Assembly: GCF_041821025.1 (NCBI RefSeq)
Contig: NZ_JBGUAY010000004.1
Coordinates: 186,001-250,000, forward strand
Direction: 5' to 3'
From: Egicoccus sp. AB-alg6-2
Lineage (GTDB): Bacteria > Actinomycetota > Nitriliruptoria > Nitriliruptorales > Nitriliruptoraceae
Length of the DNA stretch: 64,000 bases
In this document: in pieces, positions 4,772 through 32,722 of the stretch
Numbering within the stretch: the stretch's first letter is position 1
Layout: every line of letters starts with the position of its first letter
Position numbers and translations under genes: made by a program
The notes under the pieces: model-generated
What the model saw: only the letters and a program-made list of their open reading frames with translations
The model's database searches: none
What the model was told of the DNA's origin: nothing

Positions 4772-7700
4772 CGGTAGAGCCACACACGCAGCAGCGAGAG
4801 CAGCTGGTCCATGTCCACCGGCTTGGTGATGAAGTCCGACGCGCCCGCGGCCAGGCTCTCGGCCCGGTCCTCGCGCATCGCCTTCGCGGTCAGGGTGATG
4901 ATCGGCGTCTCGGCGTATCCGGGATGCTGGCGCAACTGCCGGGTCGCCTCGTGGCCGTCCATCTCCGGCATCATGATGTCCATGAGCACGAGGTCGTAGG
5001 CGACCCCGGCGCGTGCGACCCGGTCGAGCGCCGCCCGTCCGTGCTCGGCTGCCTCGACGATCATCCCCTGGGCCTCGAGCGCACGGGTGAGCGCGTACAC
5101 GTTGCGTTCGTCGTCGTCGACCACCAGGACGCGCTTGTCGCGCAGGGCCTCGTCTGCGGCGTACAGCTCCTCGAGTTGCTGCTGCTGTTCCTCGGGCAAC
5201 GCCGAGGGCGCACGGTGCAGGTGCAGCAGGGCCTCGTCCAGCAGGCGGGCCGTCGAGCCGACCGTCTTCACGACGATCGTCTCCGCATACCGGCGCAGGT
5301 GGGCCTCCTCGTCCCGCCCCAGCTCCTTGCCGGTGTGGATGATCACCGGCAGCGTGCGCAACTCGTCGTGGTCGCGGATCTCCTCGAGCAGGTCGAACCC
5401 GTTCTCGCCCGCGAGGTGGAGGTCCAGGACGAGCAGGTCGACGTCGCCCTCGGCGAGCTCGCGGCGGGCACCGTCGAGGCCACCGGCGTCGACGACCTCG
5501 ATGCCTTCGCCACGGCCGATCAACTCGCTGACCGCGCGGCGCGCGGCGTCGTCGTCCTCGACGACGAGCACCTTGCGGTCGGTGTTCAGCCCGAGCGACA
5601 TGACCCGCCCGATGGCCAGGTCGAGGGCCTCGTCGCTGGGTTCGGGTCCGGTGGTGAAGGCGGCACCGGTGCGCAACGCCATGCGCTCGACCTCGTCGCC
5701 GCCGACGACGCAGACCGGGACGTGCCGCGTCTCGCGACGCCGCTTGAGATAGGTCAGCGTCGTCAACGACTCCGCCGGGGTGCCGGCGTCCAGCAGGATG
5801 CCGCTGGGCCGGAAGCCGGTCGCGAGCGCGAATCCCGCCGACCGATCCAGGGCCACGACGACGCGGTGACCCTTCGCGTGTGCGAGCCGGACGACGCGCT
5901 CGGCCTGCTCCTCGTCCGCGACCATCGCGAGCAGGCACGGATCACCGGCCCGCAGGTGCTCACGATCGTCGAGGTGACTCGGCGTTTCGGTGGCCACGAC
6001 GCCGTCCTCGCTGGGCGCAGCCGCCGCCGCATCGGTCGGGATCAGCGTGAGTCGCTGCGCGGACGGTTCGTGCGCGGCGGGGGTGGCTCGCTGATCCGCC
6101 GTGTAGGTGATGGGCAGGTACAGCGAGAACGTGGAGCCCTCGCCCGGGGTGCTGTCGAGCGTGATGACGCCACCGAGCAGGGCGGCCAGCTCACGGCTGA
6201 TGGACAAGCCGAGGCCCGTACCGCCATGACGACGGCTCTTGGAACCGTCGCCCTGCTGGAACGCCTCGAACACCACCAACCGCTGCTCGTCACTGATGCC
6301 GATCCCGGTGTCGATCACCCGGAAGGCGACGTAGTCGCCGCCGCCCAGGCCGGTCGGAACCGGATCGGTGTCGAGATCACTGGTCACCTCGACACGGACG
6401 CCGCCGGTGTCGGTGAACTTGATGGCGTTCGAGAGCAGGTTCTTGAGGATCTGCTGCAGCCGCCGGACGTCGGTGTAGATCGACTCGGGCGCCGCCGCGA
6501 GATCGACCTCGAGGGAGAGCCCCTTGTCGGCCGCGACCTGGGCCAGGCCCTGACGAACCGGTTCGATCGCATCGGTCAGCGTGACCAGCTCGGCCTCGAC
6601 GTCCATGCGCCCGGCCTCGATCTTCGACAGGTCGAGGATGTCGTTGATCAACTCGAGCAGGTCGTTGCCCGAGCGGTGGATGGTCTCGGCGAATTCACGC
6701 TGCTCGCCGTTGAGGCCGTCGCCGTCGTCGGCGAGGAGGCGTGACAGGATCAGCATGCTGTTGAGCGGCGTACGCAGCTCGTGCGACATGTTGGCCAGGA
6801 ACTCGGACTTGTATCGCGAGGACCGCGCGAGCTGCTCGGCCCGGTCCTCGACCTCGGCCCTGGCGCGTTCGATCTCGGCGTTGGTCAGCTCGATGGCGCG
6901 CTTCTGGGCCTCGAGCAGCTCCGCCTTCTCCTCGAGCTCCTCGTTTGTCTGCTGCAGCTCCTCCTGCTGCGCCTGCAGCTCCTCGGACTGTGCCTGCAGT
7001 TCCTGGGTGAGGCCCTGCGACTGCTCGAGCAGCTCCTCGGTCCGCATCGTGGCCTGGATCGTGTTCAACACGATGCCGAGCGTCTCGGCGAGCTGGTCGA
7101 GCAGCTGCCTCGCGACGTCGTCGAAGGCGCGCAACGACGCGAACTCGAGGACGCCGAGCAGTTCCCCCTCGAACAGGATCGGGAGGACGAGCACGTTGAC
7201 CGGGCGCGCCTCGCCCAGGCCGGACTGCACCACGTACTCCTCGGGCGCGTCGGTCACCAGGATCGGGATGCGCTCGACGGCCGCCTGGCCGACCAGCCCC
7301 TCCCCGAGACGGAACCGGTTGGAGACGGAGCGGCGCTGCGAATAGGCGTAGCTCGCCACGAGACGCAGCTCGGTCTCGGCCTCGGGCGCCCCGTCCTCGA
7401 GCTGGGGGCAGAAGAAGGCGCCGCTGTGCGCGTCGATCAACGGCGTCACGTGCGACATCACCTGGCTGGCGACGGCACCGACGTCACGCTGGCCCTGCAA
7501 CATCGTGGAGATGCGGGCCACGTTGGTCTTCAACCAGTCCTGGGCGGTGTTCTGCTCCGTGGTCCGGGACAGGTTCACGATCATCTGGTTGATCGTGTCC
7601 TTGAGTTCGGCCACCTCACCGCTGGCGTCGACCTCGATCCGTTGACTGAGGTCACCGCGGGTCACCGCGGTGGACACCCCGGCGATCGCGCGGACCTGGG

Positions 7701-9717
7701 TGGTGAGGTTGGCGGCGAGCTGGTTGACGTTGTCGGTCAGGTCCTCCCACGTCCCCGAGACCCCGGCGACGTTGGCCTGACCGCCGAGCTTGCCCTCGGT
7801 CCCCACCTCGCGGGCGACCCGCGTGACCTCGGCGGCGAAGCTCGACAGCTGCCCCACCATCCGGTTGAGCGTGGTCTTGAGCTCCAGGATCTCGCCCTGG
7901 GCGTCGACGGTGATCTCCTGCGACAGGTCACCGTTGGCGACCGCGGTCGCGACCGTGGCGATGCTGCGGACCTGGTCGGTCAGGTTGCGCGCCATCGAGT
8001 TGACGCTGTCGGTCAGGTCCTCCCAGGTGCCCGACGCCCCCGCCACCGTGGCCTGGCCACCGAGCTTGCCCTCGGTCCCCACCTCGCGGGCCACCCGCGT
8101 GACCTCGGCCGCGAAGCTCGACAGCTGCCCCACCATCCGGTTGAGCGTGGTCTTGAGCTCCAGGATCTCGCCCTGGGCGTCGACCGTGATCTCGCGACTG
8201 AGGTCTCCCTGCGCGACGGCGGTCGTCACGGCCGCGATGTCGCGGACCTGGTCCGTCAGGTTGCGCGCCATCGAGTTGACGTTGTCGGTCAGGTCCTTCC
8301 ACGTCCCCGACACGCCCGCGACGTTGGCCTGACCGCCGAGCTTGCCCTCGGTCCCCACCTCGCGGGCGACCCGCGTGACCTCGTCGGCGAAGCTGGACAG
8401 CTGCCGGACCATCCGGTTGATCGTGTCCTTGAGCTCCAGGATCTCGCCCTGGGCGTCGACCGTGATCTCGTGGCTGAGGTCGCCCTGGGCCACCGCCGTG
8501 GTCACCTCGGCGATGTTGCGGACCTGGTCGGTGAGGTTTCGCGCCATCGAGTTGACGTTGTCGGTCAGGTCCTTCCACGTCCCCGACACGCCCTTGACCC
8601 GCGCCTGCCCCCCGAGCTTGCCCTCGGAGCCGACCTCGCGGGCGACCCGGGTGACCTCGTCGGCGAAGCTGGACAGCTGGTCGACCATGCGGTTGAGCGT
8701 GGTCTTGAGTTCGAGGATCTCGCCCTGGGCGTCGACCGTGATGCGCTGGGAGAGGTCACCGTGCGCGACCGCGGTCGCGACCGTGGCGATGTTGCGGACC
8801 TGGTCGGTGAGGTTGCGCGCCATCGAGTTGACGTTGTCGGTCAGGTCCTTCCACGTCCCCGACACGCCCTTGACCCGGGCCTGACCGCCGAGCTTCCCCT
8901 CGGAGCCGACCTCGCCGGCGACCCGGGTCACCTCGTCGGCGAACGCCGAGAGCTGATCGACCATGGTGTTGACGGTCGTCTTGAGCTCGAGGATCTCCCC
9001 CTGGGCATCGACGGTGATCTTGCGCGACAGGTCGCCCTGGGCGACGGCCGTGGTCACCTCGGCGATGTTGCGGACCTGGTCGGTGAGGTTGCGCGCCATC
9101 GAGTTGACGTTGTCGGTCAGGTCGCGCCAGGTTCCCGCCGCGCCCTTGACCCGGGCCTGACCTCCGAGCTTGCCCTCGGTCCCGACCTCGCGGGCGACCC
9201 GGGTGACCTCGTCGGCGAATGCCGACAGCTGGTCGACGACCTTGTTGACGCTGCGGCCGATGCTGAGGAACTCGCCGCTCATCTTGTGGTCGTTGACGTC
9301 GAGGGAGAAGCGCTGTCCGAGGTCGCCCTCCGCGATGGCCGTGAGGACGCGCGAGATCTCCGAGATCGGTTGCACCAGGTGGTCGATGAGCTCGTTGAGC
9401 GCCTCGATCTGCTCGTCCCAGCCACCTCCGACGCGGCCCACCGAGGCGCGTTCGTTGATGCGTCCGTCGCGACCGACGCGCTGACTCACGCGGCGCAGCT
9501 CGTCCGTGACGGCCACCCGCCGCTTCATCAACTCGTTGAAGGTGGCCGACAGCTCACCCGCCACGCCGTCGCGACGGAAACGCAGCCGTTGGGTGAAGTC
9601 CCCCTCCACCGCGGCCTCGAGGGCCTCGAGCAGTTGCTCCTGCTCGGCCAGTGTCAGGCCGCCGTCGGCCGCCCCGGAGGATCCGGCCCGCCCGCTGACC
9701 GCTTGCTTGCTCGTCAA
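4768..9717 (-). CDS. soluble poly-HAMP hybrid histidine kinase with GAF and three receiver(-like) domains, 1649 aa
   Basis: Start TTG at 9717 follows AGGAG with five bases between. No membrane segment or signal peptide is seen, so it is cytosolic. Residues about 40-720 are a HAMP chain whose core repeats every 92 residues; then a GAF domain (720-880), a Gln/Glu-rich coiled coil (880-970), HisKA with His979 in [11 protein letters not shown], a HATPase domain with GTGLGLSIS (about 1075-1210), a degenerate receiver (1257-1372) and two intact receivers (about 1378-1495 and 1530-1649). The layout resembles fungal group III (Nik1/Os-1) osmosensor kinases and related bacterial proteins. It heads the cheR-cheB-receiver operon. 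The stimulus is unknown; osmotic sensing is an analogy. Confidence 0.92.
7724..9379 (-). repeat. tandem 276-bp repeats encoding 92-residue HAMP units
   Basis: The same 17-base landmark (TTGACGtTGTCGGTCAG on the plus strand) recurs at 7724, 8000, 8276, 8552, 8828 and 9104, always exactly 276 bases apart, so six units have no indels relative to one another. Middle copies are nearly identical over long stretches; the copy nearest the N-terminus is the most divergent. Each unit encodes a [17 protein letters not shown] half and a [15 protein letters not shown] half, that is, alternating HAMP types. Confidence 0.95.
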
Positions 9718-9886
9718 GTCCGCTCCTGACGTCGGGCGACGTGCCGCCACGGCGCCGCCATCGGCCCGCGACGTTAGCCGCGCCTGCGACCCGGTCGGTC
9801 CGTCGGTCGTCACGCCCCGGGCGGTCGGCCGCTGCGCGCCGCGGCTGGGCGGCATAGCGTGCAGGGCGAGCGGGATCGGGGAGGAC

Positions 9887-10459
9887 ATGGTCGGATCGGC
9901 GCAGCACGGCCGTCGACGCGCTTCGGGCGCGTTGGCGCTCACCGCCTCGGTGCTCCTCGGTTGTGGCATCGCGGTCGACGACGCGGTCGGGCCCACGGCG
10001 GATGCCGGTACGGACGCAGAACCGGCGGAGGACGACTCGTCGCCGGCGACGACCGTCGACCCGGAGGACGTGGAGGACGTGGAGGAAACGTCCACGGACG
10101 TCGCCGTCACCGTCTCGGCAACCGTCGAGGACGGTGCGGTGACCGCCGAGGGCACGGCGACGGTGCCGGACGGCGCGTTGCTCGCCTTCGAGCTCCGACA
10201 TGACGAGACCTTCGAGGTGATCGACGGCTACACCGAGGTGCAGGACGGCACCTACACCTTCAGCCAGGACCTGGGCGACTGGCCCGCCGGCGACGTGGAG
10301 GTGTGGGTCGCGTTCCAGACCGAGCTGGTCGGTGCCGAACAGCCGGCCGAGGTGCGCGAACGCTACGGCGAGAACGGCGAAGGCATGACGGGCGATCAGG
10401 TGACGACCGACGGGTACGTGACCCGCGTCGACGCCACCGACACCGTGCACCTCGACTGA
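9887..10459 (+). CDS. putative lipoprotein, 190 aa
   Basis: The ATG at 9887 follows GGGGAGG. The N-terminus (RRR near residue 10, then a hydrophobic stretch ending LLGC) is a lipoprotein signal with the lipidated Cys at about residue 26. An acidic, Thr/Asp/Glu-rich tether (about 30-65) leads to a single predicted beta-sandwich domain of about 115 residues. I do not recognise the family. It is divergent from the hybrid kinase operon (169 bases between starts) and converges with the monooxygenase, so it may be an envelope partner of the kinase, though nothing in the sequence proves it. Confidence 0.75.
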   Translation: MVGSAQHGRRRASGALALTASVLLGCGIAVDDAVGPTADAGTDAEPAEDDSSPATTVDPEDVEDVEETSTDVAVTVSATVEDGAVTAEGTATVPDGALLAFELRHDETFEVIDGYTEVQDGTYTFSQDLGDWPAGDVEVWVAFQTELVGAEQPAEVRERYGENGEGMTGDQVTTDGYVTRVDATDTVHLD

Positions 10460-11793: not shown

Positions 11794-14700
11794 GTGAGCC
11801 ACCACGGGGCGTGCGGGGGCAGCGTGGGCACGACATCGGCTCGTGGGGAACGATCCGACCTCGAGGTGGCCGTCACCGCCGCGTTCGGTGGCTCGCTGTT
11901 GGCCGACGACCTGCGCGGGAGCCCCGCGGCCGCCGCGGCCGCCCTGGACGAGTGTGCGCCCGACCCGTTGCTGCGTGGCATCGTCGACGCCCTCGCCGGC
12001 GAAGCGGCGTCCGCCGTGGTGCACCTGCGCGAGGCAGGACGCGGCGGCGACGAGAGGACGCGTGGCCGCGCAGCAGCCTGGGCGGCGTGGGCCGCCACGC
12101 GGCGGTCGAACACCTTCCCGGGCGACACCGTGGCGGACGGACTCGAAGTGTTCGCGCGCTGGCCCGAACTTGCTTCGCACCCGGCGGTGCCGGACCAGGA
12201 GCCGGGTTTCGTCGAATTGGAACAGCTGGTGCTGACGCGGATGGCTCCGCGCTTGCGCTTCGTGCGCTCCCAGTTGCGTGCACCGATGCTCCAGGTGGAC
12301 GCGGCCGAGGTCGGCCAGGGCGCCCTCGACGAACTCGCCGACCTCCACCAGCGGGCCGTCGATGCCGACGAGCTGTCACTCGCCGCTGCCGTCCTGCGAT
12401 GGCGTGCCGAACTCCTCCATCTCGTCGGCGACCGGGCAGCAGCCGAGCGCCTGCTGGACGACGTGGCTCGCGAGGCGATCGGCCGCGACGACCACGCTGC
12501 GGCGGCGGCGTGTGATCTGCTGAGGGGTGACCTGGTCCTGGCACCGTTCTCGCATCCGCTGGCGGCCGACCTGGCCCTGACGGAGGCCGCCGGCGACACC
12601 AGCGAGCTGCCGTGGGCGGTCGAGTACGCCGAGGCCGACCCCGCCGCCGTCGACGTCCCGGTAGCGACGGCGGCGTACGAGGCGGCCGCCTCCTCCTACG
12701 CACGGGCGGTCGCACCGCGTGGACTGGTGGCCGTCGCGCTCCGGCAAGCGTTGCTCGCACGCCTGACGGGCGACGACACGGCGGCCGTGCAACTCGCCGA
12801 GCGTGCGGCGAACGAGGCTGCCGCAGCCGGTGACGCGTGGCTCCTCCGCACGGCACAGGTCCACACGCTGCTCGCCCGGACCGGAGCGGGACGATCCACG
12901 GCTTCGCTGTCGCTGCCCGAGGAGGTGGCCGCGTGGGGCATCTCGACCGGCAGCTACAGCCAGGCGTTCGGGCTCGGGCTGCTGCTCGCGCGGGCCGGGA
13001 GGCAGTTCCTCGTGCGCGCCGGAGATCCGGACCGCGCCTCGACCTGCCACGCGCTCGCCGGCCGGATCTTCGCCGGACTCGACGCCAGGCTGCAGCGCAG
13101 CCAGAGCCTGGCCGACCGGGGCGTGGTGGCGGCCGCCGTCGGGGACGCCCACTCGGCGGCGCACGAGTTCGATCGCGCGCTGCAGGAGCTCCACCCCCGG
13201 CTCGTCGACCCCACGTTCGGTCGCGACGCGTGGCGCCGCGCGATCTCGCTCGGCCAACGGCTGCATCAACTCGCCCTCGGCGGCGGCGAACCAGCCGCTC
13301 TCCGTCGGTCCGCGATGCGGCTGCAGGACCTGCTCAGCGCGGAGCCGTCGGAGCCAGCGGGCGATCCTGCCGATCTGCTCGACGGGCAACTCCGGACGAT
13401 GGCGGAGACGGCGATCGTCGGCGCAGAGCTGCACGCGGCGCTCGCCGAGGGCGACCGCGCCCGCGACGACGGCGCCAGTGACGTCGCGGCGGAGCGGTAC
13501 GGGGTGGCGCTCGCGGCGGCGGACGCCGCCGGCGACGACCTCGGCCGGGCCGTCACCCTCGCCCGACTGCAACGGCCACACGAGGCCCTGGCCGCCTACC
13601 ACGCGCACGAGACCGCGGTCGAAGCGCAGCAGCAGTCACTGCAGGAGCAACTGCGCGCCGCGCTCGGTGCAGACGCTCCGGCCCTGCCCGACCCGCGGGG
13701 AGGACGGCTGCGGCGCGAAGCGGCGTTCCTGACCCGGGTCGAGCTCTTCGACGCGGCCGCCGAGGCTTTCGACGCGCTCGATGCCCACGAGCCGGGCTGG
13801 TGGCACGCGGAGACGCGGCCCTGGGAGCTGCTCAGTGACCAGGGGCACGTGGCCGAACAACGAGGCGAGCACGCCCGGGCGGCCGAGCGTCACGCCGTCG
13901 CCATCGAGGCATTGGGACACCGCGCCGCCAACCTCGCGCGCGACGAAGCCAGGACGGCCCTGCACGCCGGCACTGCCCGCGTCTTCGGGCGGGCGGCGCG
14001 AACCGAGCTCCGACTGGCCGAAACGTCCGCCCCGGTCGCAACCCCTTCCGGCCCTCGTGCGGAGCGTTCGTTCGTGCTGGCCGAGACGGGCAGGGCACGC
14101 GCCCTCGCCGAGCTGCTCGCTGCCACCAGTCCCCTGGTGCGGACGCGCGCCGACGACGGTGACGCCGACGATCTGGTCGCGGCGTGGATGGCCGCAAGCG
14201 CACGCGTCTCGCTCTGGCAGCAGCTCCTCCTCACGCAGGTTCAGGAACACCGGAACGAGGGCGCCGTCGGCCAACTCGACGACCGGCTACGGGAGGCGGA
14301 ACGGGAGCTGCTCGCCGCCACGGACGCACTGCAGGAGCGGGCCCCTTCGGTCGCGCACGCCATGACGCCGCCCGCCGAGGTGACGCTCGAGCAGGTGTGC
14401 GCCACCTTGACGCCGGGAGCCGTCCTGGTGAGCCACCTCCTCGTGGACGACGACCTGCTGACCTTCGCGGCGACACCGGAGGGACTCGCGATCGCGCACC
14501 GACAGCGGGTCGACGCCCGCGACCTCACACGAACGCTGCTGGCCTTCTCGAAGGGCTGCGCGACCGGCGGGCACTGGGTCGAAGCCGGGCGATCGGCGGC
14601 ACGACTGCTCCTCGATCCCGTTGCCGACGTGCTCGACGACGCCGACCGCCTCACGTTCGTGCCGACGGGCGTTGGCCACGCGGCACCGCTCCACGCCCTC

Positions 14701-15531
14701 CCCTGGCGCGACGACGTCCTCCTCGAGCGGGCACCGGTGGCCGTGGTGCCGAGCGCGACCACCCTGTCACATCTGCGCGCACCGGTGGTGGCGCGCGGCG
14801 GCGGGAGCCTCGTGGTCGGCGACCCCGAGGACATGGTGCTGCGGTCGCTGACCGGCGGTGCGCCCGTGCCCCAACCGCCGCTCCCGTACGCCCGGGCCGA
14901 GGCGGTCGCCGTCGCCCGGTGGCTCGACGACCCGGTGCTGCTCACCGGGCCGGAGGCCACCACCGCCGCCGTTCGGGCGGAGCTGAGCCGAGCCGGCCTG
15001 GTGCATCTGGCGACGCACGCCCACGTCGACGTCGCGGTGCCTGCCGCGAGCGCGCTGTTGCTCGCACGCGGCGACGCGCTGCGACTGGTCGACCTGATCG
15101 GGGCCCGCATGTCGGCCCAACTCGTGGTGCTGTCGGCATGCGAGAGCGGCCGCGGGCAGCTGGCGGGAGGGGACGAGGTGCTCGGCATGACCCGGGCACT
15201 GCTGGCAGCCGGCGTCTCGTCGGCGGTCGTCAGCCTGTGGCCCGTCGACGACGTGTCGACGGGCCTGCTCATGTCCCGGTTCGCCGCCACCGTGGCCGCG
15301 GGCAGCGATCCGGTCACGGCCCTCCGCGAAGGACAGCGCTGGTACCGCTCGCTGGACGCCGCCGGCCATCGCGACGCCGTCCAGGAACTCGCCGCGGGGC
15401 TCCCCGACGCGTCGATGCCGCGCGGGCTCGCCAGCGGTGGGCCGCCGGCCATCCCACGGACCCACCCCTACCACTGGGCCCCGTTCATCTACGTCGGTGC
15501 ACACCCGGCAGGCCCAGCCGCGCCCGTATGA
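11794..15531 (+). CDS. large helical-repeat protein with C-terminal CHAT (caspase-like) protease domain
   Basis: About 1245 residues. Residues 1-900 are Ala/Leu/Glu-rich predicted helical repeats (TPR-like), the typical sensor part of CHAT proteins. The CHAT domain occupies about 1000-1235, with catalytic His1075 in HLATHAH and Cys1116 in LSACESG, the downstream LWPVDD element and a closing HPYHWAPFIYVG. CHAT peptidases belong to clan CD with caspases and act as activated proteases in defence and signalling proteins. Start is uncertain: GTG 11794 has GAGGG six bases upstream, GTG 11824 is an alternative. It ends 13 bases from the convergent caspase gene. Confidence 0.9.
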   Translation: MSHHGACGGSVGTTSARGERSDLEVAVTAAFGGSLLADDLRGSPAAAAAALDECAPDPLLRGIVDALAGEAASAVVHLREAGRGGDERTRGRAAAWAAWAATRRSNTFPGDTVADGLEVFARWPELASHPAVPDQEPGFVELEQLVLTRMAPRLRFVRSQLRAPMLQVDAAEVGQGALDELADLHQRAVDADELSLAAAVLRWRAELLHLVGDRAAAERLLDDVAREAIGRDDHAAAAACDLLRGDLVLAPFSHPLAADLALTEAAGDTSELPWAVEYAEADPAAVDVPVATAAYEAAASSYARAVAPRGLVAVALRQALLARLTGDDTAAVQLAERAANEAAAAGDAWLLRTAQVHTLLARTGAGRSTASLSLPEEVAAWGISTGSYSQAFGLGLLLARAGRQFLVRAGDPDRASTCHALAGRIFAGLDARLQRSQSLADRGVVAAAVGDAHSAAHEFDRALQELHPRLVDPTFGRDAWRRAISLGQRLHQLALGGGEPAALRRSAMRLQDLLSAEPSEPAGDPADLLDGQLRTMAETAIVGAELHAALAEGDRARDDGASDVAAERYGVALAAADAAGDDLGRAVTLARLQRPHEALAAYHAHETAVEAQQQSLQEQLRAALGADAPALPDPRGGRLRREAAFLTRVELFDAAAEAFDALDAHEPGWWHAETRPWELLSDQGHVAEQRGEHARAAERHAVAIEALGHRAANLARDEARTALHAGTARVFGRAARTELRLAETSAPVATPSGPRAERSFVLAETGRARALAELLAATSPLVRTRADDGDADDLVAAWMAASARVSLWQQLLLTQVQEHRNEGAVGQLDDRLREAERELLAATDALQERAPSVAHAMTPPAEVTLEQVCATLTPGAVLVSHLLVDDDLLTFAATPEGLAIAHRQRVDARDLTRTLLAFSKGCATGGHWVEAGRSAARLLLDPVADVLDDADRLTFVPTGVGHAAPLHALPWRDDVLLERAPVAVVPSATTLSHLRAPVVARGGGSLVVGDPEDMVLRSLTGGAPVPQPPLPYARAEAVAVARWLDDPVLLTGPEATTAAVRAELSRAGLVHLATHAHVDVAVPAASALLLARGDALRLVDLIGARMSAQLVVLSACESGRGQLAGGDEVLGMTRALLAAGVSSAVVSLWPVDDVSTGLLMSRFAATVAAGSDPVTALREGQRWYRSLDAAGHRDAVQELAAGLPDASMPRGLASGGPPAIPRTHPYHWAPFIYVGAHPAGPAAPV

Positions 15532-15544
15532 GCACGAGCCGCTC

Positions 15545-17455
15545 TCAGTCCCTTCGGGTGACGAGCACGGCGTCGGTGGTGACCCACAGGCTCGGCACGC
15601 CGTTTCCCCGGCGTGGCGGCGTCGCGGTCTCGGCAAGGGCCTCACGGCCGGTCGGGGGCGGCGGGAGCGGGCCGGCGGCCGACCACTCCGCTGGCGGCGG
15701 AGCGAGCGCAAGGGCATCGAACGAGGTCGCGTGGGTGGTCGCCACGACCCGCAGGTGATCGATGGCTTCGTCGGCGTGGTCCGGCAGGAATGCGGTCAAC
15801 GACCGCTCGGGTGCGCCGCCGACGGTGACGGTTGCGCCGGGTGCCATTCGGTCCTGTGCGCCCCGGACGGACGGGTGGAGCACGGTGACGGCCCAATCGG
15901 AGGTGAACGCGATCAGCGCGGCGTACAGCGGCACCCGTGCGTCGTTGGCGAGCTCGACGACGAGCGGTGTACCCGCCACGACCTCGTGCGCGCCGTCCGG
16001 GCGCCGGGAGACCTCGGTGAGCTGTCGCTCGCCGAAGGTGTCCGCCACGAGCGCCTTCACCCGGAGGTGGACGGGCGGCGGCATTCCACGCTGGAGCGTC
16101 GGCCGCTCCGAACGCAACAGCCACGCGAATCGCGCCACGTGCGCGACCGCGGCGACGAACGCCAGTGGGTCGTCGGCGGCGACGAGCCGCCGCCCCGAAG
16201 CGTCCGCGAGGAGGAGCCGGCCATCCTCGACGGTGACGACCATGTCGGCGTCGTCGAGGGCGTCCGCGTGGGTGACCACGCCGGCCAGGGGTCCCGATCT
16301 CATCGCGGCGACGAACGACGCCGTCGCGGGCTGGTCGGCGGCAGTGACGTGAAGCCGCCACCGGTGAGCCCCGAGATCGAGGCGGTCGAGGTGTGCACCG
16401 GTGCCCCGCTCCGGCAGTGCCACCCGGCCGAGCACCGGACCGGCGGACCGAACCGGCTCGACGTGCTCGAGCGCGACGATCGCGGATCTGCCGTCTGCTC
16501 GCTCCAGCGCCATCGTGCTGCCCGGCGTCAGACCGTGCACCCGGCCTGCGTCGAGCCAGACCCGCTCTCGACGAATGCCGATGACGGCCGCCTGGACGCT
16601 CCAGGGGCGGCGGCGATGGTCGAAGACCAGGCGGTCGACGTCGCCCTCGCACTGTGGCGTCTGGTTCCTCCGTGCGTCGTTGACCGCGAAGCGAACGCGC
16701 TCGTGGAGCTGCCGGTAGGTCAACCGGGGCCCCGCACCCATCGCGGCCAGTTGCGGGACGAGGAAGTACGTGAAGGCGCCGCGGACGGTGCCGTCGTCAC
16801 CGACGTGTTCGAAGGCTTCCTGCTCGGCGGTGCAGGCGGCGAGCAGCACGTGCCTGACCGGTCCACCGGTCGTCACGCCGCGCGTCCGTGAACGCGTGGT
16901 CGGCGACCGTTGCCGATCGAGCAGATCGGTCTGCGGGCGCGGGTCGGGAGGGACGGCCCGCACACGCTGACTTCGGCGGCCGCGCGTCCCCGAACCGCTG
17001 TGGCAGCAGTCGAGGACCACGGTCGTGTTCTCGCCCGGCAGGTCCTCGAGCCACGCCGCCAGTTCGAGATCGCGGATGTCGTAGACGTCGGGATGGCGCG
17101 CGTCGTGGGGCACGATGGTCTCGTGGTAGCCGTCGGGCTCCCGGCCGGTGACGTCGCGTGCCCTGGACCCGTGGCCGCTGAAGTAGAACAGGAAGGCCGG
17201 GGGCTCGGTCCCCCCGCCGACACGCTGCCACGCCTCCCCACGTGCGCGCAGATGGGTCGCGAACGCCTCGACGATCGCCGACCTGGTCGCCTCCTCGTCG
17301 ACCAGTTCGACGACGTGGTCGCCGGGCACGTCGAACGTGTCGACGAGTACCTGGCGCATCGCCCGGACGTCGTTGGCGCAGCCCGCGAGGCCGGGGACGT
17401 CAGGATGCGAGTATCGATCGACACCGACCAGGAGCGCGAAGAGCGGTGCGTTCAT
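15545..17455 (-). CDS. caspase-like (metacaspase, peptidase C14) protein, 636 aa
   Basis: The N-terminal p20-like domain (about 1-260) starts ALLVGVDRYSHPDVPGLAGC, has catalytic His95 in FYFSGHGSR and Cys151 in LDCCHSG, and an AACTAEQEAFE segment in the p10-like half. The remaining 370 residues are beta-rich and unrecognised; they could be a DUF4384-like or substrate-recognition region. There is no signal peptide, so it is probably cytosolic. Start ATG at 17455; an ATG 19 codons upstream is possible. It converges with the CHAT gene and is divergent from the cyclic-nucleotide-binding gene (85 bases). Confidence 0.92.
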   Translation of the reverse strand: MNAPLFALLVGVDRYSHPDVPGLAGCANDVRAMRQVLVDTFDVPGDHVVELVDEEATRSAIVEAFATHLRARGEAWQRVGGGTEPPAFLFYFSGHGSRARDVTGREPDGYHETIVPHDARHPDVYDIRDLELAAWLEDLPGENTTVVLDCCHSGSGTRGRRSQRVRAVPPDPRPQTDLLDRQRSPTTRSRTRGVTTGGPVRHVLLAACTAEQEAFEHVGDDGTVRGAFTYFLVPQLAAMGAGPRLTYRQLHERVRFAVNDARRNQTPQCEGDVDRLVFDHRRRPWSVQAAVIGIRRERVWLDAGRVHGLTPGSTMALERADGRSAIVALEHVEPVRSAGPVLGRVALPERGTGAHLDRLDLGAHRWRLHVTAADQPATASFVAAMRSGPLAGVVTHADALDDADMVVTVEDGRLLLADASGRRLVAADDPLAFVAAVAHVARFAWLLRSERPTLQRGMPPPVHLRVKALVADTFGERQLTEVSRRPDGAHEVVAGTPLVVELANDARVPLYAALIAFTSDWAVTVLHPSVRGAQDRMAPGATVTVGGAPERSLTAFLPDHADEAIDHLRVVATTHATSFDALALAPPPAEWSAAGPLPPPPTGREALAETATPPRRGNGVPSLWVTTDAVLVTRRD

Positions 17456-17540
17456 CGTCCGCCCTCGCGGTTCGTGCTGGTCGTCGTCGGCCGACCCGTG
17501 CATGATGCCACCTGAGGACCACGGCAGAGGGGGCTTCGGG

Positions 17541-18584
17541 ATGGGCGAGGCGACGGGGGTCGAGGGGACGGGGACGGGCACCAGGGTGGAGTCGTCGGCA
17601 CTCGTGCTGTCGTGGATCCCCTCGGAATCGATGCCACCGGTCGTCCGCGCGGCGTTCGACCTGGGCCTGGCGCACTTCGATCCGCCGCCACCCGAGGTCG
17701 TCACCGACCTTGACGCACTACAGGCGCAGAACGCCTTCCGTTTCGCGAACCGCCTCAGCGCCTGGATCGAGGTACGCGACGGTCGCATCGTCGACCACGG
17801 GTACGACGGAACGTTCCACATGGGTGTCACCACCCTCTCGTTCGGCAAGCGCGACGTGTCGTTCGCCGCGGTCGAGCACCCGATCGAGCAGCCCGCGCCC
17901 CAGGTCACCGAGACCTCGGTGCGATTCCTGCAGACGGTCGGGTGCCGCACCGGCGTGCCCATGCCCCGTCCGGTGAAACGCAAGCCCTACGTACAGGTGG
18001 TGGCGCCACCGGTGTGGACGACCCTGGCGCTGACCCTCCATGCCGATGGACGGGCCGAGCAGGAGATCGTCCAGGCCAGCCCCTTCCCGCGCCACTGGCT
18101 CTACGACGGCGAGGGCCGGCTGGTGGCCAAGACCGGCGTACTCGGGCTGCTGGAGTTCGCGGGCGAGACCCTGACCGGTGAGACGCCCTGGGGCACCGGC
18201 GACGACCGTGCGCCCGTGCTCGTACCCGCGGAGTCGGCGCTGGAGCGGCGACTGTCCGAGACGGTCATGCGCGGTGGGAAGGAACCAGCGTTCCGCACGC
18301 TCAAACCGCAGGAGACCCTGGTCGAGCAGGGCGAGCCCGGCGACGCGCTGTTCCTCCTGCTCGACGGGCTGCTCATGGTCGAGGTGGACGGGGAACCCGT
18401 GGCGGAGCTCGGGCCGGGCGCCATCCTCGGGGAACGGGCCGTCCTGGAGGGTGAGCGGCGCACCGCGACGCTGCGGGCGACGACCCGCGCCAAGGTCGCC
18501 GTGGTCGCCGCCGATCAGGTCGAGCGCGCAGCGCTGGCCGAGCTCAGCGAGGGTCACCGGCGCGAGGAGCACCGGTCGAGCTGA
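17541..18584 (+). CDS. cyclic-nucleotide-binding protein with an unrecognised N-terminal domain, 347 aa
   Basis: The C-terminal 110 residues are a cNMP-binding domain: TLVEQGEPGDALFLLLDGLL, then a phosphate-binding cassette GAILGERAVLEGERRTA that keeps the Gly-Glu pair and the Arg-Thr-Ala end. No helix-turn-helix follows, so it is not a CRP-type regulator. The N-terminal 230 residues (starting after a Gly/Thr-rich leader) are unrecognised, with many aromatic and Pro residues. ATG 17541 follows GAGGGGG. The last 41 bases overlap the 3' end of the convergent cyclase gene, and the caspase is divergent, which suggests a shared cyclic-nucleotide circuit. Confidence 0.85.
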   Translation: MGEATGVEGTGTGTRVESSALVLSWIPSESMPPVVRAAFDLGLAHFDPPPPEVVTDLDALQAQNAFRFANRLSAWIEVRDGRIVDHGYDGTFHMGVTTLSFGKRDVSFAAVEHPIEQPAPQVTETSVRFLQTVGCRTGVPMPRPVKRKPYVQVVAPPVWTTLALTLHADGRAEQEIVQASPFPRHWLYDGEGRLVAKTGVLGLLEFAGETLTGETPWGTGDDRAPVLVPAESALERRLSETVMRGGKEPAFRTLKPQETLVEQGEPGDALFLLLDGLLMVEVDGEPVAELGPGAILGERAVLEGERRTATLRATTRAKVAVVAADQVERAALAELSEGHRREEHRSS

Positions 18585-21500
18585 GGGCACGGAGCCGCGC
18601 CACGTCACGGAGCCCCACCGCGTGGCCCTTCTCCGCGTAGCGGTCCTCGGCGACGTCGAGCGCACGGGCGGCGGCCGCCGGCGAACCCTCGTCGACCAGG
18701 ATCTCCGAAAGCAGCAGGGACGCATCCCCCTGCAGGACGGGACTGTCCGTGGTCGAGGCGATGGCGACGGCGTCCCGCGCCGACGTCACCGCCGCCGAAT
18801 GGTCCCGGGCCCCCCTGGCGAGACGGGCCTCCGCCATACGCAGACGCACCTGGGCCTCGACGTCGTCCGCCGCGGCGTTGCGCCGTGCCTGCTCGGTGAG
18901 TCGGACGACCTCGGGGTCGTCCGGGTCCGGCAGGCAGACCGCGACCGTCGCGGCGACCACGGCCGCCTGGGCGTGGTCGCCCATCTCCTCGAGCAGCGCC
19001 ATGCCGGATCGCAGGGCATCGAGAGCTGCTTCCGGCACGCCGACCAGCCGTTCGACATGCCCCTGCAACACGGTCGCCGCCGCCGCCCAGTACCGCTGCC
19101 CCAGCTCGGCGAAGCGCACCTGCGCGCCGACCAGCGCGTCCCGGGCAGCATCACCCTCCCCCGACATCGCCCGCAGGAGGGCCACGATCTGCAGGACGCG
19201 GGCCTCGAGGGCCGGCTCGCCGGCGTAGCGCTCGAGCAACGACGTGCACCGGGCCAGCGCCTCTTCCACCGGCCACGGCCCCAGCGGCAGGACGAATGCG
19301 GCCGCGACGGCATTCTCCCGCTCCTCCGCCTCATCACCCGCGGCGCGCGCGTGGCTCTCGGCCCGCTCCATCGCCTGCAGGGCGTCGGCGAACCGCCCCC
19401 GCAGGAAGTGGACCTCCGCGCGCAGCCCCCACGCCCGACCGAGACCCCGATCGTCGGCGGCGGCCGTGAAGACCGCGATGGCCTCGTCGGACACCTCGGT
19501 GGCGTAGGCCGCCCAACCGTCGAGATCGACGTTGGAGCGCACCCAGGCGGCGCTGAGCAGCGCATGCATCCGGACGTGGCGGTCACCCGCGAGCTCGGCC
19601 GTGCGGATGGCGCGCCGGAGCTCGTCCTCGGCTGCGGCGAAGTTCCCGACCTCGGCGAAGGCGCGGCCGCGATCGGTGAGCAGCTGGGCCAGGCGGGGAT
19701 CGTCGGGAGGAAGGCGGTCGACGGCGTGGCCGAGGAGCCGGACGGCCGCGGGCATGTCACCACGTGCGAGGGCGCGGCACCCTGCGTCGGCGGCACGCTG
19801 GCCGTGTCGGGTCGCGAGCAGCCCGATGCGTACGTCGGTCGGCTCGAGCCGTACGCGTTCGTCGAGGGCCCGCTCGAGGTGCAGGAGCACGAACTCGTCG
19901 ACGCGTGGGCTGGGTGACCTGGCCTCGAGCGCGGCGGCGTGCCGTTCGTGCAGATCGGCACGCAGCCGCCGCGGCAACCCGGCGTAGACCGCGTCACGGA
20001 CGAACTTGTGCCGGAACTCGTAGCCCTCGGGGCCCGGGCGCAACAGCTCGCGGTCCACGAGTCGCTCGGCCCGCGCGACCACGTCGTCGTGCTCGGCCTC
20101 CGCGGTCAGTGCCGCGACGGCGTCGCACGAGAACGCCTCGCCGCAGACCGCCGCGCGCCCCAGGAACGCGCGGTCCTCGGCGTCGAGGCGGTCGATACGG
20201 GAGGCGAGCAGCAGGTGGATACTGGCGGGCAGGGCCAGCTGCCCCTCGGGTTCGGCCAACGACCACGAGCCGTCGGTCGTCCGGCGCAGCGATCCGGCCT
20301 CGACCAGGGTGGCGACGAGCTCCTCGAGGAAGAGCGGGTTGCCCGCCGCGGCTGCGGTCAGGCGCTCGACGGCGAGGGGGTCGACCGGCCCATCCAGGCG
20401 GTCGTCGACCAGGCGGGCGACGTCACGATCCTCGAGGGGAGCAAGGGTGAGCGACAGCGCGCCGGTCGTGCCGCCCGCCCAACCCGGCCGGTGTTCCAGG
20501 AGTTCGGGACGGGCGATCCCCAGCAGCAGCAACGGACCGGATCGCGACCGGGCGAGGCGGTCGAGCAGGTCGAGCAGTGGCGGTTCGGCGTTGTGGAGGT
20601 CGTCGATCACGATCGCGAGACCAGCGTCGCCGGCGCAGGCGGCGAGAAGGTCGGCGAGCGCATCGTCGGGATCGACCGAGAGCACCGCGTCGGTCAGACC
20701 CACCGCCGCTGCGGCGGTCGACAGGGTCTCCGATGGGACCGCTCCACCTGCCAGCGTCGCGAGCTTGTCGTGGATCTCCTCCTGCGTGTCCGCGTCCGTG
20801 ATGCCGGCGGCGGATGCGAGCGCCTCCGCCAGGGGCCAGTAGGTGACCCCGTCGCCGTAGGGCAGACACCGGCCGTAGAGCGTCCGTACGGGCGCCTGTT
20901 CGAGGGCGGTCGTCGCGAGCCGGGTCTTGCCGATCCCGGCCGCCCCGTAGACGGTGAGCAGGTGGGGTGCGCCGGCTTGCAGCGTCCGACGCACGGTCCA
21001 CGCGACCAGCTCCAGCTCGGCCTCGCGGCCCACGAACGGCAGGTCGAACCGGCGCGCCTGGGCGACGGCACCGGCGTCGACCTCGCGCACCCGGTACGCA
21101 CGCAGTGGCGCCGCCTTGCCGCGGACGCGCAGCGGCTCGAGGACGTCGACGACCACGGCATGACGCACCAGTCCGCAGGTGGTCTCACCGATCAGGACCT
21201 CCCCGGGCGCCGCGACCTGCTCGAGCCTGGCCGCGACGTTGACGGCATCACCGGTGGCCAGCGTGCGCCCACCGGCGCCGCCGACGAGCACCTCACCGGT
21301 GTTCACACCCAGTCGCCACTGCAGGGTCACACGTCCAGGGACGGCGGCGGCCGCCATCCCTTCCACCTCGTCGCGAATCTCGACGGCGGCGCGCACGGCC
21401 CGGAGCGCGTCGTCCTCGTGCACCGTCGGCAGGCCGAAGACGGCCATCACGGCGTCGCCGATGAATTTCTCCACGACGCCGCCGTGGCGCGAGACGATGG

Positions 21501-21711
21501 TCTGGATCCGCTCGAAGTACCGGTTGAGCACGGCGCGGTAGGCCTCGGGATCGTGCCGTTCGCCGAGGTCCGTCGACCCGACCACGTCGGCGAACAGCAC
21601 CGTGACGACCTTCCGAGCCTCGTCGTCGCCGGCGTGCCGCGGCTGACCGCAGCCGAGACAGAACCTGGCGTGCGCCGGGTTCTGCTCCCCACACGTCCCA
21701 CACGTGTCCAC
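18544..21711 (-). CDS. nucleotide cyclase/AAA ATPase/helical-repeat protein with N-terminal zinc ribbon, 1055 aa
   Basis: Residues 4-21 carry two CxxC pairs (zinc ribbon). The class III cyclase domain (about 35-205) has metal ligands Asp42 (LFADVVGST) and Asp86 (FIGDAV), Lys82, and the Asn/Arg of GDAVNVAARLE. The position that usually carries Asp or Thr for purine choice seems to be Leu by hand alignment, so product and activity are uncertain. An AAA/STAND ATPase follows (Walker A GAAGIGKTRLA near 257, Walker B IVIDDLHNAE near 369), then TPR-like repeats. The GTG start is preceded by TACGCT and six bases, a leaderless arrangement. The next gene tail-to-tail is a cNMP-binding protein. Confidence 0.92.
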   Translation of the reverse strand: MDTCGTCGEQNPAHARFCLGCGQPRHAGDDEARKVVTVLFADVVGSTDLGERHDPEAYRAVLNRYFERIQTIVSRHGGVVEKFIGDAVMAVFGLPTVHEDDALRAVRAAVEIRDEVEGMAAAAVPGRVTLQWRLGVNTGEVLVGGAGGRTLATGDAVNVAARLEQVAAPGEVLIGETTCGLVRHAVVVDVLEPLRVRGKAAPLRAYRVREVDAGAVAQARRFDLPFVGREAELELVAWTVRRTLQAGAPHLLTVYGAAGIGKTRLATTALEQAPVRTLYGRCLPYGDGVTYWPLAEALASAAGITDADTQEEIHDKLATLAGGAVPSETLSTAAAAVGLTDAVLSVDPDDALADLLAACAGDAGLAIVIDDLHNAEPPLLDLLDRLARSRSGPLLLLGIARPELLEHRPGWAGGTTGALSLTLAPLEDRDVARLVDDRLDGPVDPLAVERLTAAAAGNPLFLEELVATLVEAGSLRRTTDGSWSLAEPEGQLALPASIHLLLASRIDRLDAEDRAFLGRAAVCGEAFSCDAVAALTAEAEHDDVVARAERLVDRELLRPGPEGYEFRHKFVRDAVYAGLPRRLRADLHERHAAALEARSPSPRVDEFVLLHLERALDERVRLEPTDVRIGLLATRHGQRAADAGCRALARGDMPAAVRLLGHAVDRLPPDDPRLAQLLTDRGRAFAEVGNFAAAEDELRRAIRTAELAGDRHVRMHALLSAAWVRSNVDLDGWAAYATEVSDEAIAVFTAAADDRGLGRAWGLRAEVHFLRGRFADALQAMERAESHARAAGDEAEERENAVAAAFVLPLGPWPVEEALARCTSLLERYAGEPALEARVLQIVALLRAMSGEGDAARDALVGAQVRFAELGQRYWAAAATVLQGHVERLVGVPEAALDALRSGMALLEEMGDHAQAAVVAATVAVCLPDPDDPEVVRLTEQARRNAAADDVEAQVRLRMAEARLARGARDHSAAVTSARDAVAIASTTDSPVLQGDASLLLSEILVDEGSPAAAARALDVAEDRYAEKGHAVGLRDVARLRALSSTGAPRAGDPR

Positions 21712-22113: not shown

Positions 22114-25100
22114 GTGGGCGCGAAGCGGTCGCCGACGTCCGAACGCCTGCGCTTCGACCTCGTCGGCCCGTTCACGGTGTCCCGCGGCGGCCGCCGGCTG
22201 CCGCTGCGGGACCTCGGCAGCCGCAAGGAACGGACGTTGCTGCAGGTCCTGCTCCTGCACCCCGACGAGGTGGTGTCGCTGGACCGCATCGAGGACATCC
22301 TCTGGAACGGTGCCCCACCCGCGACGGCGAAGCGCACCGTCGCGAGCCTCGTCAGCCGCCTGCGTGCGCGGCTCGGCAGCGATCTCCTCGAGGGCGCCGC
22401 AGGCGGATACCGGCTGCTGATGCATCCGTCGCTCGAGACGGATCTGTGCGAAGCGCAACGGCTGACACGGGTCGCCGTCGCACGTCTCGACGCGCGGGAA
22501 CCTTCGCTCGCCCTGTCCGCGGCGACCCGTGCACTGGAGCTCGTCGGCAGCGGCGCGCTGCTCGCCGACGAGACCGATGCGCCGTGGGTCGAACCGCACC
22601 GTGCCGCGCTGCTCACCCTGCGCCGTACGCTGCGGCGGGTCGGCTGGGACGCGGCCCTGCTGCTGCGTGACCACGAGGTCGCACTCCAGCTCGCCGAGGC
22701 CGCCTGCGCGGACGACCCCTTGGACGAGGAGGCGACGCGGGCCGTGATGCGCGCGGCCCAGCTGCGCGGTCAACCGCCCGTCGGGCTCGTCGCGTTCGAT
22801 CGGCTCCGGCGTGCGCTGGCGGAACAGCTGGGCACCGACCCGTCGGTGCAGACGCTACGGGTCCACACGGCGCTCCTGCGCGAGGAGTCGCCGGACCCGG
22901 TGCCCGCGTTCGGTCGACCATCGGTCTCCCCCGGAGAGCCTGCGGCTGGCGAGTTCGTCGGCCGGGCCGCCGAACTGCGCGAACTCGAGCGTCGATGGTC
23001 CGAGGCCGCCGGGGGCCGGGGTGGGATGGTGCTGTTGGTCGGGGAAGCCGGCGTCGGCAAGACCCGACTGGCCCTGCAACTGCTGACGTCCGCCGAGGCC
23101 ACCGGCGGCACCGTCGCGCGGGTGCGGTGCTACGAGGCGGAGCGCTCGCTGTTGCTGGCACCGATCGTCGAGGTGGTGCACGAGCTCGTCCGGCAGACGC
23201 CGCCAGCGCGCGTCCGGGAGTCGGCCGGGGCCTGGGCCGCCGCCCTGGCCGCGCTCTCGCCGGAGCTCGAGGAGCTCCTCGGAACTCCCGCACGCGAGCG
23301 CGCAGACCCCGAGGTCGCGCGGCAACGGACCTTTCAGGCCATCACCTTCCTCGTCGGACAGCTCGCCGCCCAGCGGCCGGTGGTGGTCTTCGTCGACGAC
23401 CTGCACCACGCCGGGGCGGCGACCGTCGAGCTGCTGCACTACATCCATCGGCACACCAGCGACCACCGGCTGCTCGTGCTGGCCACCGTCCGCGCCGAGG
23501 AGGGCCGGTCGGTGCTCGCCGACCTCGGTTCGACCGCGCAGGTCCTCGACGTGGGGCGACTCTCGGACCGGGCCGTCGCCGCGCTCGTCGAGCGGGCCGG
23601 TGCCGAGCGGTTCCTGCCACGCATCCTCGCGCTCACGCGCGGGCACGCACTCTCGGTCGTGGAGTCGCTGCGCGCGCTGGCCGAGGCCGGACCCGACGTC
23701 GCCGAACCGCCCGTGCCGTCGTCGCTGCGCGCGGCGGTCCTGCGACGGGTCGAGCGTGCCGGTCCCGACGTCGAGCACCTGCTCCGCACGGCCGCGGTGC
23801 TCGGGGCGACCTTCGACCTCGAGACGCTGGCGGCACTGCTCGGGCTCGCACCCGACGCAGCGGCCCAGCGGGTCGAGCAGGCGATGTCGGCCGGGCTCGT
23901 GGTCGAGGAGGGACCGAGGTTCGGGTTCAGCAACGACCTGACGCGTGAGATCGTGTACCAGGACACGCCCGCTGCGGTTCGACGACTGCGCCATCAGCGC
24001 GCCGCCGAGCTGCTGATCGGCCAACCGGAAGCGGCCGCGAACCACGCGGCAGCCGTGGGCGACTGGGCCGCGGCACACGTGGCCTGGCTGACCGCAGCCG
24101 ACCGCGCCGCCGAGCGCTACGCCAACCGGGACGCCGAGGAACTGCTGCACCGGGCCATCGTCGCCGGCGAGGCCGCCGCCGACCCCGTCGGCATCGCCCG
24201 TGCCCGGCTCGGCCGCGCCCGGGTCCGGGAGGCCCTGGCCGACTACCAGGGTGCCTTCGAGGACCTGGAGACCGCCGCGGAACTCGCGCGCGGAAGCGCC
24301 CGGCCGGAGCTGGAGGCCGCCGCGCTCCGCGCACTCGGTGGTGACGTCATCGTCGGGTTGGGTCGACCCTCCTCCGACTGCCTGCCCTACCTCGAGGTGG
24401 GACTCGCGGTGGCCGAGTCGGCCGCCCTGGGACCGCTCGAGGTCGACCTGATGGGCCGGATCGCGGTCGTGTGGACCAACCGGACCCGGTTCGACCTCGC
24501 GGCGGAGATGGCCGAGCGTGCCCTGCGCCGCGCGCGAGCGATCGAGGACGCGCGGACGACGGCGGTGGCACTCGACGCCGTCAAGAACGTGGGCGCCTAC
24601 ACCGGCGACGTGGCGCGACTGCGTCGCGTCCTGCCCGAACTCGAGGCGCTGCTGCACGAGACCGGCGACCTGACGCTGCTGCAGTGGTGCGTCTTCGAGT
24701 CGGTCATCCCGCCGTTGGCGGCGGCCAACTGGGGAGAAGCCGACCTGGTGCTGGCGCGCGCGCTCGCCCTGAACCGCCGTACCGGCCACCCGTGGGGATC
24801 GTTGTTCCTCGCCCAACGTTCCTGGCTGCACCGCGCCCGCGGCCACTACGGGGCAGCCGTCGACGATGCCGGGAGCGCGGGTCGGGCCGCGATCGCGGGG
24901 CACCACCCCTGGTGGACGGCGTTCTCGCACGCCATGCTCGGGTGGGTGCTGAGTGACGCGGGTGCGCACGAAGCGGCGATCGCCACCCTCGAGGCGGGTC
25001 TGGCAGCCGTCGAACGGGACGGCATGGACAGCTACCTGCTGCGGTGTGTCAGCCACCTCGCGCTCGCCTGCTGGCGGGCGGGCGACGTCTGCACGGCGGA

Positions 25101-25608
25101 CCGTCATCTCGCCCGCGCAGCACGGTTGCTCGACCAGGTGCGAACCCCCCCGGGCACGGCCTTTCTCCATGCGGCCCACGCCTATGGTGCGGTCGCTCGG
25201 CTGCTGATCGCGAAGGGAGCGCTCGCCGAAGCGCTCGAACTGCTGGACCGGCTGCGACCGGCCGCGGAGCGGTCCGGTTGGGTCGAGGTGGTCGCCAGCG
25301 ACCGCCTGCTCCGCGGACGAGCGCGGCTGCTGGACGGCGACGCCCGAGCGGCACGCCGGTGCCTCGACGAGGGCGTCCGCCTGGCGGAGCAGGCATCCCT
25401 GCGCCCGCTCGCCTGGGAGTTCCACGAGGCGCTTGCCCACCTCGAGCGACACGAGGGTGACCACCAGCGGACCACCGGCGAGGAGGCGGCTGCGACGGTC
25501 CACCTCGAAGTCGTCGCCGCCTCGATCCCCGACGCCGGTCTGCGGGCAGGGCTGCTAGCCGTCGCTGCCCGCCGCCGCACCGAGCCCAGCGGTGAACCTG
25601 CCGGCTGA
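22114..25608 (+). CDS. SARP/AfsR-type transcriptional regulator with BTAD and AAA ATPase, 1164 aa
   Basis: Residues about 10-100 form an OmpR-like winged helix (RFDLVGPFTVSRGGRRLPL; VSLDRIEDILWNG). The bacterial transcriptional activator domain follows (105-250), then a STAND-type ATPase with Walker A LLVGEAGVGKTRLA near residue 308 and Walker B VVVFVDDLHHAG near 425, then a TPR-like solenoid to the end. These proteins activate secondary-metabolism or stress genes, with the ATPase as a nucleotide switch. GTG at 22114 is preceded by AGGTGG with seven bases between. The AhpD-like gene starts 70 bases downstream and could be a target. Confidence 0.9.
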   Translation: MGAKRSPTSERLRFDLVGPFTVSRGGRRLPLRDLGSRKERTLLQVLLLHPDEVVSLDRIEDILWNGAPPATAKRTVASLVSRLRARLGSDLLEGAAGGYRLLMHPSLETDLCEAQRLTRVAVARLDAREPSLALSAATRALELVGSGALLADETDAPWVEPHRAALLTLRRTLRRVGWDAALLLRDHEVALQLAEAACADDPLDEEATRAVMRAAQLRGQPPVGLVAFDRLRRALAEQLGTDPSVQTLRVHTALLREESPDPVPAFGRPSVSPGEPAAGEFVGRAAELRELERRWSEAAGGRGGMVLLVGEAGVGKTRLALQLLTSAEATGGTVARVRCYEAERSLLLAPIVEVVHELVRQTPPARVRESAGAWAAALAALSPELEELLGTPARERADPEVARQRTFQAITFLVGQLAAQRPVVVFVDDLHHAGAATVELLHYIHRHTSDHRLLVLATVRAEEGRSVLADLGSTAQVLDVGRLSDRAVAALVERAGAERFLPRILALTRGHALSVVESLRALAEAGPDVAEPPVPSSLRAAVLRRVERAGPDVEHLLRTAAVLGATFDLETLAALLGLAPDAAAQRVEQAMSAGLVVEEGPRFGFSNDLTREIVYQDTPAAVRRLRHQRAAELLIGQPEAAANHAAAVGDWAAAHVAWLTAADRAAERYANRDAEELLHRAIVAGEAAADPVGIARARLGRARVREALADYQGAFEDLETAAELARGSARPELEAAALRALGGDVIVGLGRPSSDCLPYLEVGLAVAESAALGPLEVDLMGRIAVVWTNRTRFDLAAEMAERALRRARAIEDARTTAVALDAVKNVGAYTGDVARLRRVLPELEALLHETGDLTLLQWCVFESVIPPLAAANWGEADLVLARALALNRRTGHPWGSLFLAQRSWLHRARGHYGAAVDDAGSAGRAAIAGHHPWWTAFSHAMLGWVLSDAGAHEAAIATLEAGLAAVERDGMDSYLLRCVSHLALACWRAGDVCTADRHLARAARLLDQVRTPPGTAFLHAAHAYGAVARLLIAKGALAEALELLDRLRPAAERSGWVEVVASDRLLRGRARLLDGDARAARRCLDEGVRLAEQASLRPLAWEFHEALAHLERHEGDHQRTTGEEAAATVHLEVVAASIPDAGLRAGLLAVAARRRTEPSGEPAG

Positions 25609-32662: not shown

Positions 32663-32722
32663 ATGACGGTCCGCCGCAACTCCTTTCCGGCGCGCGCCAC
32701 CGCGACGCGGACGGCACGGTGA
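32663..32722 (+). CDS. putative 19-residue leader peptide of the UbiA operon
   Basis: ATG 32663 opens a 19-codon frame, MTVRRNSFPARATATRTAR, very basic and Thr-rich. Its TGA overlaps the UbiA GTG by three bases. With the -10 six bases upstream it would be translated leaderless and couple to ubiA. It may be only a spacer, or an attenuation-type leader (six of its 19 residues are Arg). Confidence 0.35.
   Translation: MTVRRNSFPARATATRTAR

Follow-up and report, generated by a model that had tools for sequence, protein, structure and literature searches.

Two recurrent gene pairs, cyclase with cyclic-nucleotide receptor and CHAT protease with caspase, lie side by side in Egicoccus sp. AB-alg6-2

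Do four adjacent genes of Egicoccus sp. AB-alg6-2, for two proteases, a cyclic-nucleotide receptor and a nucleotide cyclase, form one system? The genes occupy positions 11794-21711 of the window (the whole stretch of 64,000 nucleotides that we analysed). All four are intact, in the order CHAT (+), caspase (-), cNMP receptor (+), and cyclase-AAA-TPR (-):

11794..15531, + strand: CHAT protease; the CHAT domain is C-terminal (about 14584-15498), and the start is at 11794 or 11866
15545..17455, - strand: caspase (Peptidase_C14 / metacaspase-like), 636 aa
17456..17540, 85 bp: head-to-head region between the caspase and receptor genes, possibly a shared promoter region
17541..18584, + strand: cNMP receptor, 347 aa; N-terminal beta-rich BAS0735-like (PDB 3c5p) fold and C-terminal cyclic-nucleotide-binding (CNB) domain
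18429..18470, + strand: phosphate-binding cassette of the receptor, GERAVLEGERRTAT
18544..21711, - strand: zinc ribbon, class III nucleotide cyclase, AAA_16, and TPR-like repeats, 1055 aa

We recomputed the spacings. The CHAT and caspase genes are tail to tail with a 13-bp gap, the caspase and receptor genes are head to head with 85 bp between them, and the receptor and cyclase genes overlap by 41 bp, tail to tail.

The G+C content is near 0.74 across the whole stretch, so composition shows no sign of recent import. Another genome of the genus, G003, lacks the four-gene block although it shares the right flank (a BTAD regulator at 57% identity, CMD at 89%, MddA at 72%, and the next gene at 71%), which means that, within the genus, this site either gained or lost the block. 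(The regulator, a BTAD-AAA-TPR protein at 22114-25608, adjoins the cyclase gene, and its conservation in G003 makes it part of the flank, not of the block.) The genes that flank the block are for ordinary metabolism and regulation, and we saw no evident defence genes among those we scanned. Elsewhere, the window encodes a 1706-aa hybrid histidine kinase with seven HAMP repeats, a GAF domain, and two receiver domains (4768-9888). It also holds a UbiA prenyltransferase, an FAD enzyme, and a type III polyketide synthase (32719-37394), which are likely a small biosynthetic cluster.

The domain content of the proteins is mostly clear. The CHAT gene matches CHAT in Pfam (PF12770, E = 5e-58) and the caspase gene matches Peptidase_C14 (E = 7e-20). 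The His-Cys dyads are intact in both the CHAT domain (motifs HLATH and LSACESG) and the caspase domain (SGHG and DCCHSG), and Pfam finds no SAVED domain in either protein. The cyclase protein matches Guanylate_cyc (3e-23) and AAA_16 (7e-19), with weak matches to TPR and a zinc ribbon. As read from its sequence, it keeps both metal Asp residues, the Lys, and the transition-state Asn and Arg. A Guanylate_cyc domain with the two metal Asp, the Asn, and the Arg marks it as a predicted class III cyclase. The base-specifying Asp/Thr position holds a non-canonical Leu, so the nucleotide that it makes is not predictable.

The receptor matches cNMP_binding (E = 3e-16), and Pfam finds no DNA-binding domain and no TIR domain in it. 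There is no transmembrane (TM) segment either (the maximum 19-residue hydropathy is 1.34). The key residues of its cassette GERAVLEGERRTAT (GERA...RT, with the Glu and Arg) vary little or not at all among 18 homologues. (The Thr that follows the cassette Arg recalls PKG, which we take as a hint of cGMP only.) A structure search with an AF2 model matched the CNB domain to those of PKG, PKA-R, CRP, and PycTIR, with Z scores of about 13-14. For the whole receptor, the structure matches covered the CNB part only and did not identify the N-terminal domain. Modelled alone (38 sequences; mean pLDDT 78, pTM 0.77), the N-terminal domain resembles BAS0735 (3c5p; Z = 12.0 over 171 residues, rmsd 4.0). 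This is its single clear match: every other one has Z below 6. We found no direct description of this receptor family in the literature that we searched.

Pfam, the recomputed spacings, and our reading of the motifs thus bear out much of the original prediction, which was made from the letters and reading frames alone: the four-gene make-up, the spacings, the intact protease catalytic residues, and a cNMP-binding protein that lacks a DNA-binding domain. It had also placed a helical-repeat sensor in the N-terminus of the CHAT protein. This is not confirmed: the N-terminal ~900 aa have no Pfam match, and no repeat family was recognised there.

We then considered whether the receptor and the cyclase belong together. 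The receptor family is present in 29 of the 396 genomes of our phylum sample. Of 61 relatives, counting the window genome, about 18 have a full-length homologue (49-59% identity); the other three genomes of the genus lack one. (At one locus, L049:994-2012 in G052, the receptor gene is in two frames with a further C-terminal piece upstream, which may be an assembly error or decay. A match in an "Acidobacteriota" MAG, L032, is possibly misassigned, and we treat it as uncertain.)

Several pieces of evidence link this family to class III cyclases. First, at 25 loci the receptor is flanked by three or more genes both ways; in 20 of these, a class III cyclase lies no more than three genes from it. 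(Our gene calls, here and elsewhere, come from a script of our own, run on fragmented assemblies.) Control genes further from the receptor, taken from the same loci, included no cyclases (0/109; per-gene Fisher P = 1.6e-5). Six of the pairs are on the same strand, with gaps of -4 to 58 bp. The five exceptions include G232, with a REC-cyclase four genes off (L167), and G057, with a REC-cyclase on another contig. Second, across the 61 genomes, the receptor is found in 18, the REC-cyclase in 14, and both in 13 (P = 1.7e-8). Third, the partners have at least five architectures: REC-cyclase, GAF-cyclase, NB-ARC/TPR-cyclase, double cyclase-AAA-TPR, and cyclase-AAA-TPR. That the receptor and the cyclase act in one pathway, with a cNMP as the putative ligand, is well supported by this comparative linkage. 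Separately, six loci in relatives (L094, L096, L097, L098, L101, and L102) have cyclase-AAA-TPR or cyclase genes beside MFS-type or small cNMP-binding proteins, which suggests that cyclase-CNB pairing is common in these genomes.

In the commonest layout, as seen with Pfam, the receptor gene and that of a REC-cyclase fusion are divergent. The cyclase side holds histidine kinases and response regulators, often together with a cupredoxin; the receptor side holds an MBL-fold hydrolase, often accompanied by an FAD enzyme. These usual partners look like ordinary environmental signalling. At six loci (L033, L037, L045, L048, L120, and L160), one arm of a conserved divergon carries a LuxR regulator, REC, histidine kinase, cupredoxin, and REC-cyclase, and the other carries the receptor, MBL hydrolase, and FAD enzyme. 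This would be a two-component-to-cNMP circuit, of which we found no description in the literature searched. The hydrolase has the HxHxDH motif (as HLHWDH, invariant in 12), which it shares with class II (MBL-fold) cNMP phosphodiesterases and Apyc1 (PMC9117128), so it is possibly a cNMP phosphodiesterase, or eraser. A profile of these hydrolases matched only RNase Z in the PDB, and the Apyc1 structures were not among the matches listed. In contrast to these loci, the window genome has no such MBL hydrolase, and it has no full-length REC-cyclase.

The cyclase of the window nevertheless belongs to a family that pairs with the receptor elsewhere. In G099, a member of the same cyclase-AAA-TPR family (49% identical to the window cyclase over the first ~320 residues) adjoins a receptor gene. 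In the receptor tree, the window copy sits on a long branch (0.69) and groups with a REC-cyclase-type receptor of its family (support 88/96). The G099 receptor is in a different clade, so the cyclase-AAA-TPR protein became a partner twice; this seems the simplest reading of the tree.

The two proteases form a separate pair, which recurs in other bacteria. Among relatives, both are rare: full-length counterparts of this CHAT protein are found in 3 of the 66 genomes of the class (the window genome, G046, and G040), and caspase homologues in none of the 60 relatives searched and in 1 of the 396 phylum genomes (G184). We examined 14 other caspase loci, namely G184 and 13 plasmid loci with caspase relatives, which are not a random sample. 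A CHAT gene is near the caspase in 7 of the 14. (At L183, the presence of CHAT was judged by a six-frame scan.) In G184, the two genes are adjacent and overlap by 4 bp. Among the plasmid loci, CHAT lies within 6 kb of the caspase relative in 6 of 13. The two genes are adjacent and convergent, as in the window, in two loci (S. clavuligerus and Embleya; 81 bp). They are adjacent with a 4-bp overlap in Leptolyngbya, adjacent in Anabaena and Tolypothrix, and near each other in Rhizobium ruizarguesonis. A caveat is that CHAT genes are common in cyanobacteria, so the cyanobacterial cases weigh less. A proteolytic cascade between the CHAT protein and the caspase would fit this pairing.

Are the two pairs joined? 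We considered a conserved four-gene operon and rejected it. All four genes occur together only in the window, and we found no second case among the genomes searched (CHAT was sought in 66 genomes of the class and the caspase in 60 relatives; the phylum sample had 396 genomes). The original prediction thus divides: its step from cyclase to sensor is strongly supported by the conserved linkage across many genomes, but the co-occurrence of the four genes, which it had named as its own test, is not found outside this genome. The closest parallel is G046, which has three of the four (CHAT, cyclase, and receptor) within 20 kb, without the caspase. There, full-length orthologues of CHAT (37%) and cyclase-AAA-TPR (47%) are tail to tail, one gene apart, and the receptor, with an MBL gene, is 11 kb away; a given gene would lie so near by chance in about 1% of cases. 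In G040, of the same genus as G046, CHAT is present and the receptor and cyclase are absent. At the 14 other caspase loci examined, neither a cyclase nor a receptor gene lies near the caspase. Searches with phmmer, with a CHAT profile of our own, and by motif found no CHAT or caspase gene at the receptor loci other than those of the window and G046.

The locus is therefore two recurrent modules side by side, with links supported within each module, and a link from receptor to protease is a plausible hypothesis. None of our results connects the locus with phage defence. Our leading reading, to which we give a little under an even chance, is a composite in which the receptor would be the switch of a proteolytic response. 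Another serious contender, though we would bet against it, is that the modules are independent and neighbours by chance, with the receptor and cyclase having their own output and the proteases their own trigger. Each pair does recur without the other, and the caspase is absent from all other relatives searched. Against this reading stand the tight interleaving of the genes (13 bp, 85 bp head to head, and a 41-bp overlap) and the linkage of CHAT, cyclase, and receptor in G046.

We also compared the locus with known systems. In type III CRISPR, SAVED-CHAT and a second caspase form a CHAT/caspase cascade. As there, a CHAT and a caspase are encoded together and would act downstream of a nucleotide messenger; unlike there, Pfam finds no SAVED domain in these proteins, and the messenger would be a cNMP, bound by a separate CNB protein. 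The same domain vocabulary, of caspase, cNMP-cyclase, and cNMP-binding domains, is found in some NTP-dependent conflict systems, but they are built around vWA, MoxR, or other NTPases (PMC7159879), and no vWA or MoxR gene is among the window neighbours that we scanned.

The closest logic is that of Pycsar (PMC11224242), in which a class III cyclase is likewise beside a receptor with a CNB domain. Here, the cyclase has intact catalytic residues, but by Pfam and hydropathy the receptor is not fused to a TIR or TM effector. Instead, its CNB domain is C-terminal, behind the BAS0735-like domain, and the cyclases of the family are fused to REC, GAF, or AAA/TPR. We do not file the locus as Pycsar because the TIR or TM effector is lacking and the non-canonical Leu at the base site gives no prediction of pyrimidine (UTP/CTP) specificity, a Pycsar feature. 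The signalling half may work like Pycsar, and by the tests we applied the locus is not a member. The original prediction, which held that this would not be a known defence type, had overlooked that a receptor with a class III cyclase is Pycsar logic, and its statement needs this comparison. Pfam, NCBIfam, and PADLOC name no specific system for the locus.

We think it very unlikely that the locus is a Pycsar-like abortive infection system, with the receptor as the effector, its N-terminal domain toxic upon binding cNMP, and the proteases as bystanders. Besides the shared logic, PADLOC gives generic matches to PycC, PycTIR, and caspase domains, the PycTIR CNB domain is among the structural matches (Z = 13.7), and relatives have the candidate MBL eraser. 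But the PycC and PycTIR matches are confined to the shared cyclase and CNB domains, the relatives are wired to two-component kinases and are not in defence islands, and the window's flanks have no evident defence genes. Least probable is that the receptor is a non-functional remnant, left on its long branch beside an unrelated cyclase after the loss of its REC-cyclase, kinase, and hydrolase: those partners are missing from the window genome, but the 347-aa frame is open, the cassette and invariant residues are kept, and the family of the neighbouring cyclase is paired with the receptor in G099.

Returning to the composite reading, the AAA/TPR part of the 18544-21711 protein might sense something, and its class III cyclase would then make a cNMP. 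The receptor (17541-18584) would bind this cNMP with its intact CNB domain, a pairing for which the comparative linkage argues. Its BAS0735-like domain might couple the signal to one protease of the CHAT-caspase pair, which may act as a cascade; the compact, interleaved arrangement and the partial parallel in G046 are what point to this coupling. The full chain, in which the cNMP of an AAA/TPR-gated cyclase is read by the receptor and licenses a CHAT-caspase cascade, is rather unlikely to be right in every step.

If the arrangement in the window is functional, it would link cNMP signalling to paired caspase-fold proteases. A two-protease response triggered by a cNMP is not described in the literature that we searched. 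The receptor family has a wider meaning. Transcription factors account for many of the known bacterial CNB proteins. This family is widespread, lacks a DNA-binding domain, swaps its class III cyclases, and often has a candidate degrading enzyme beside it. Such a family would constitute a general writer-reader-eraser pathway for cNMPs.
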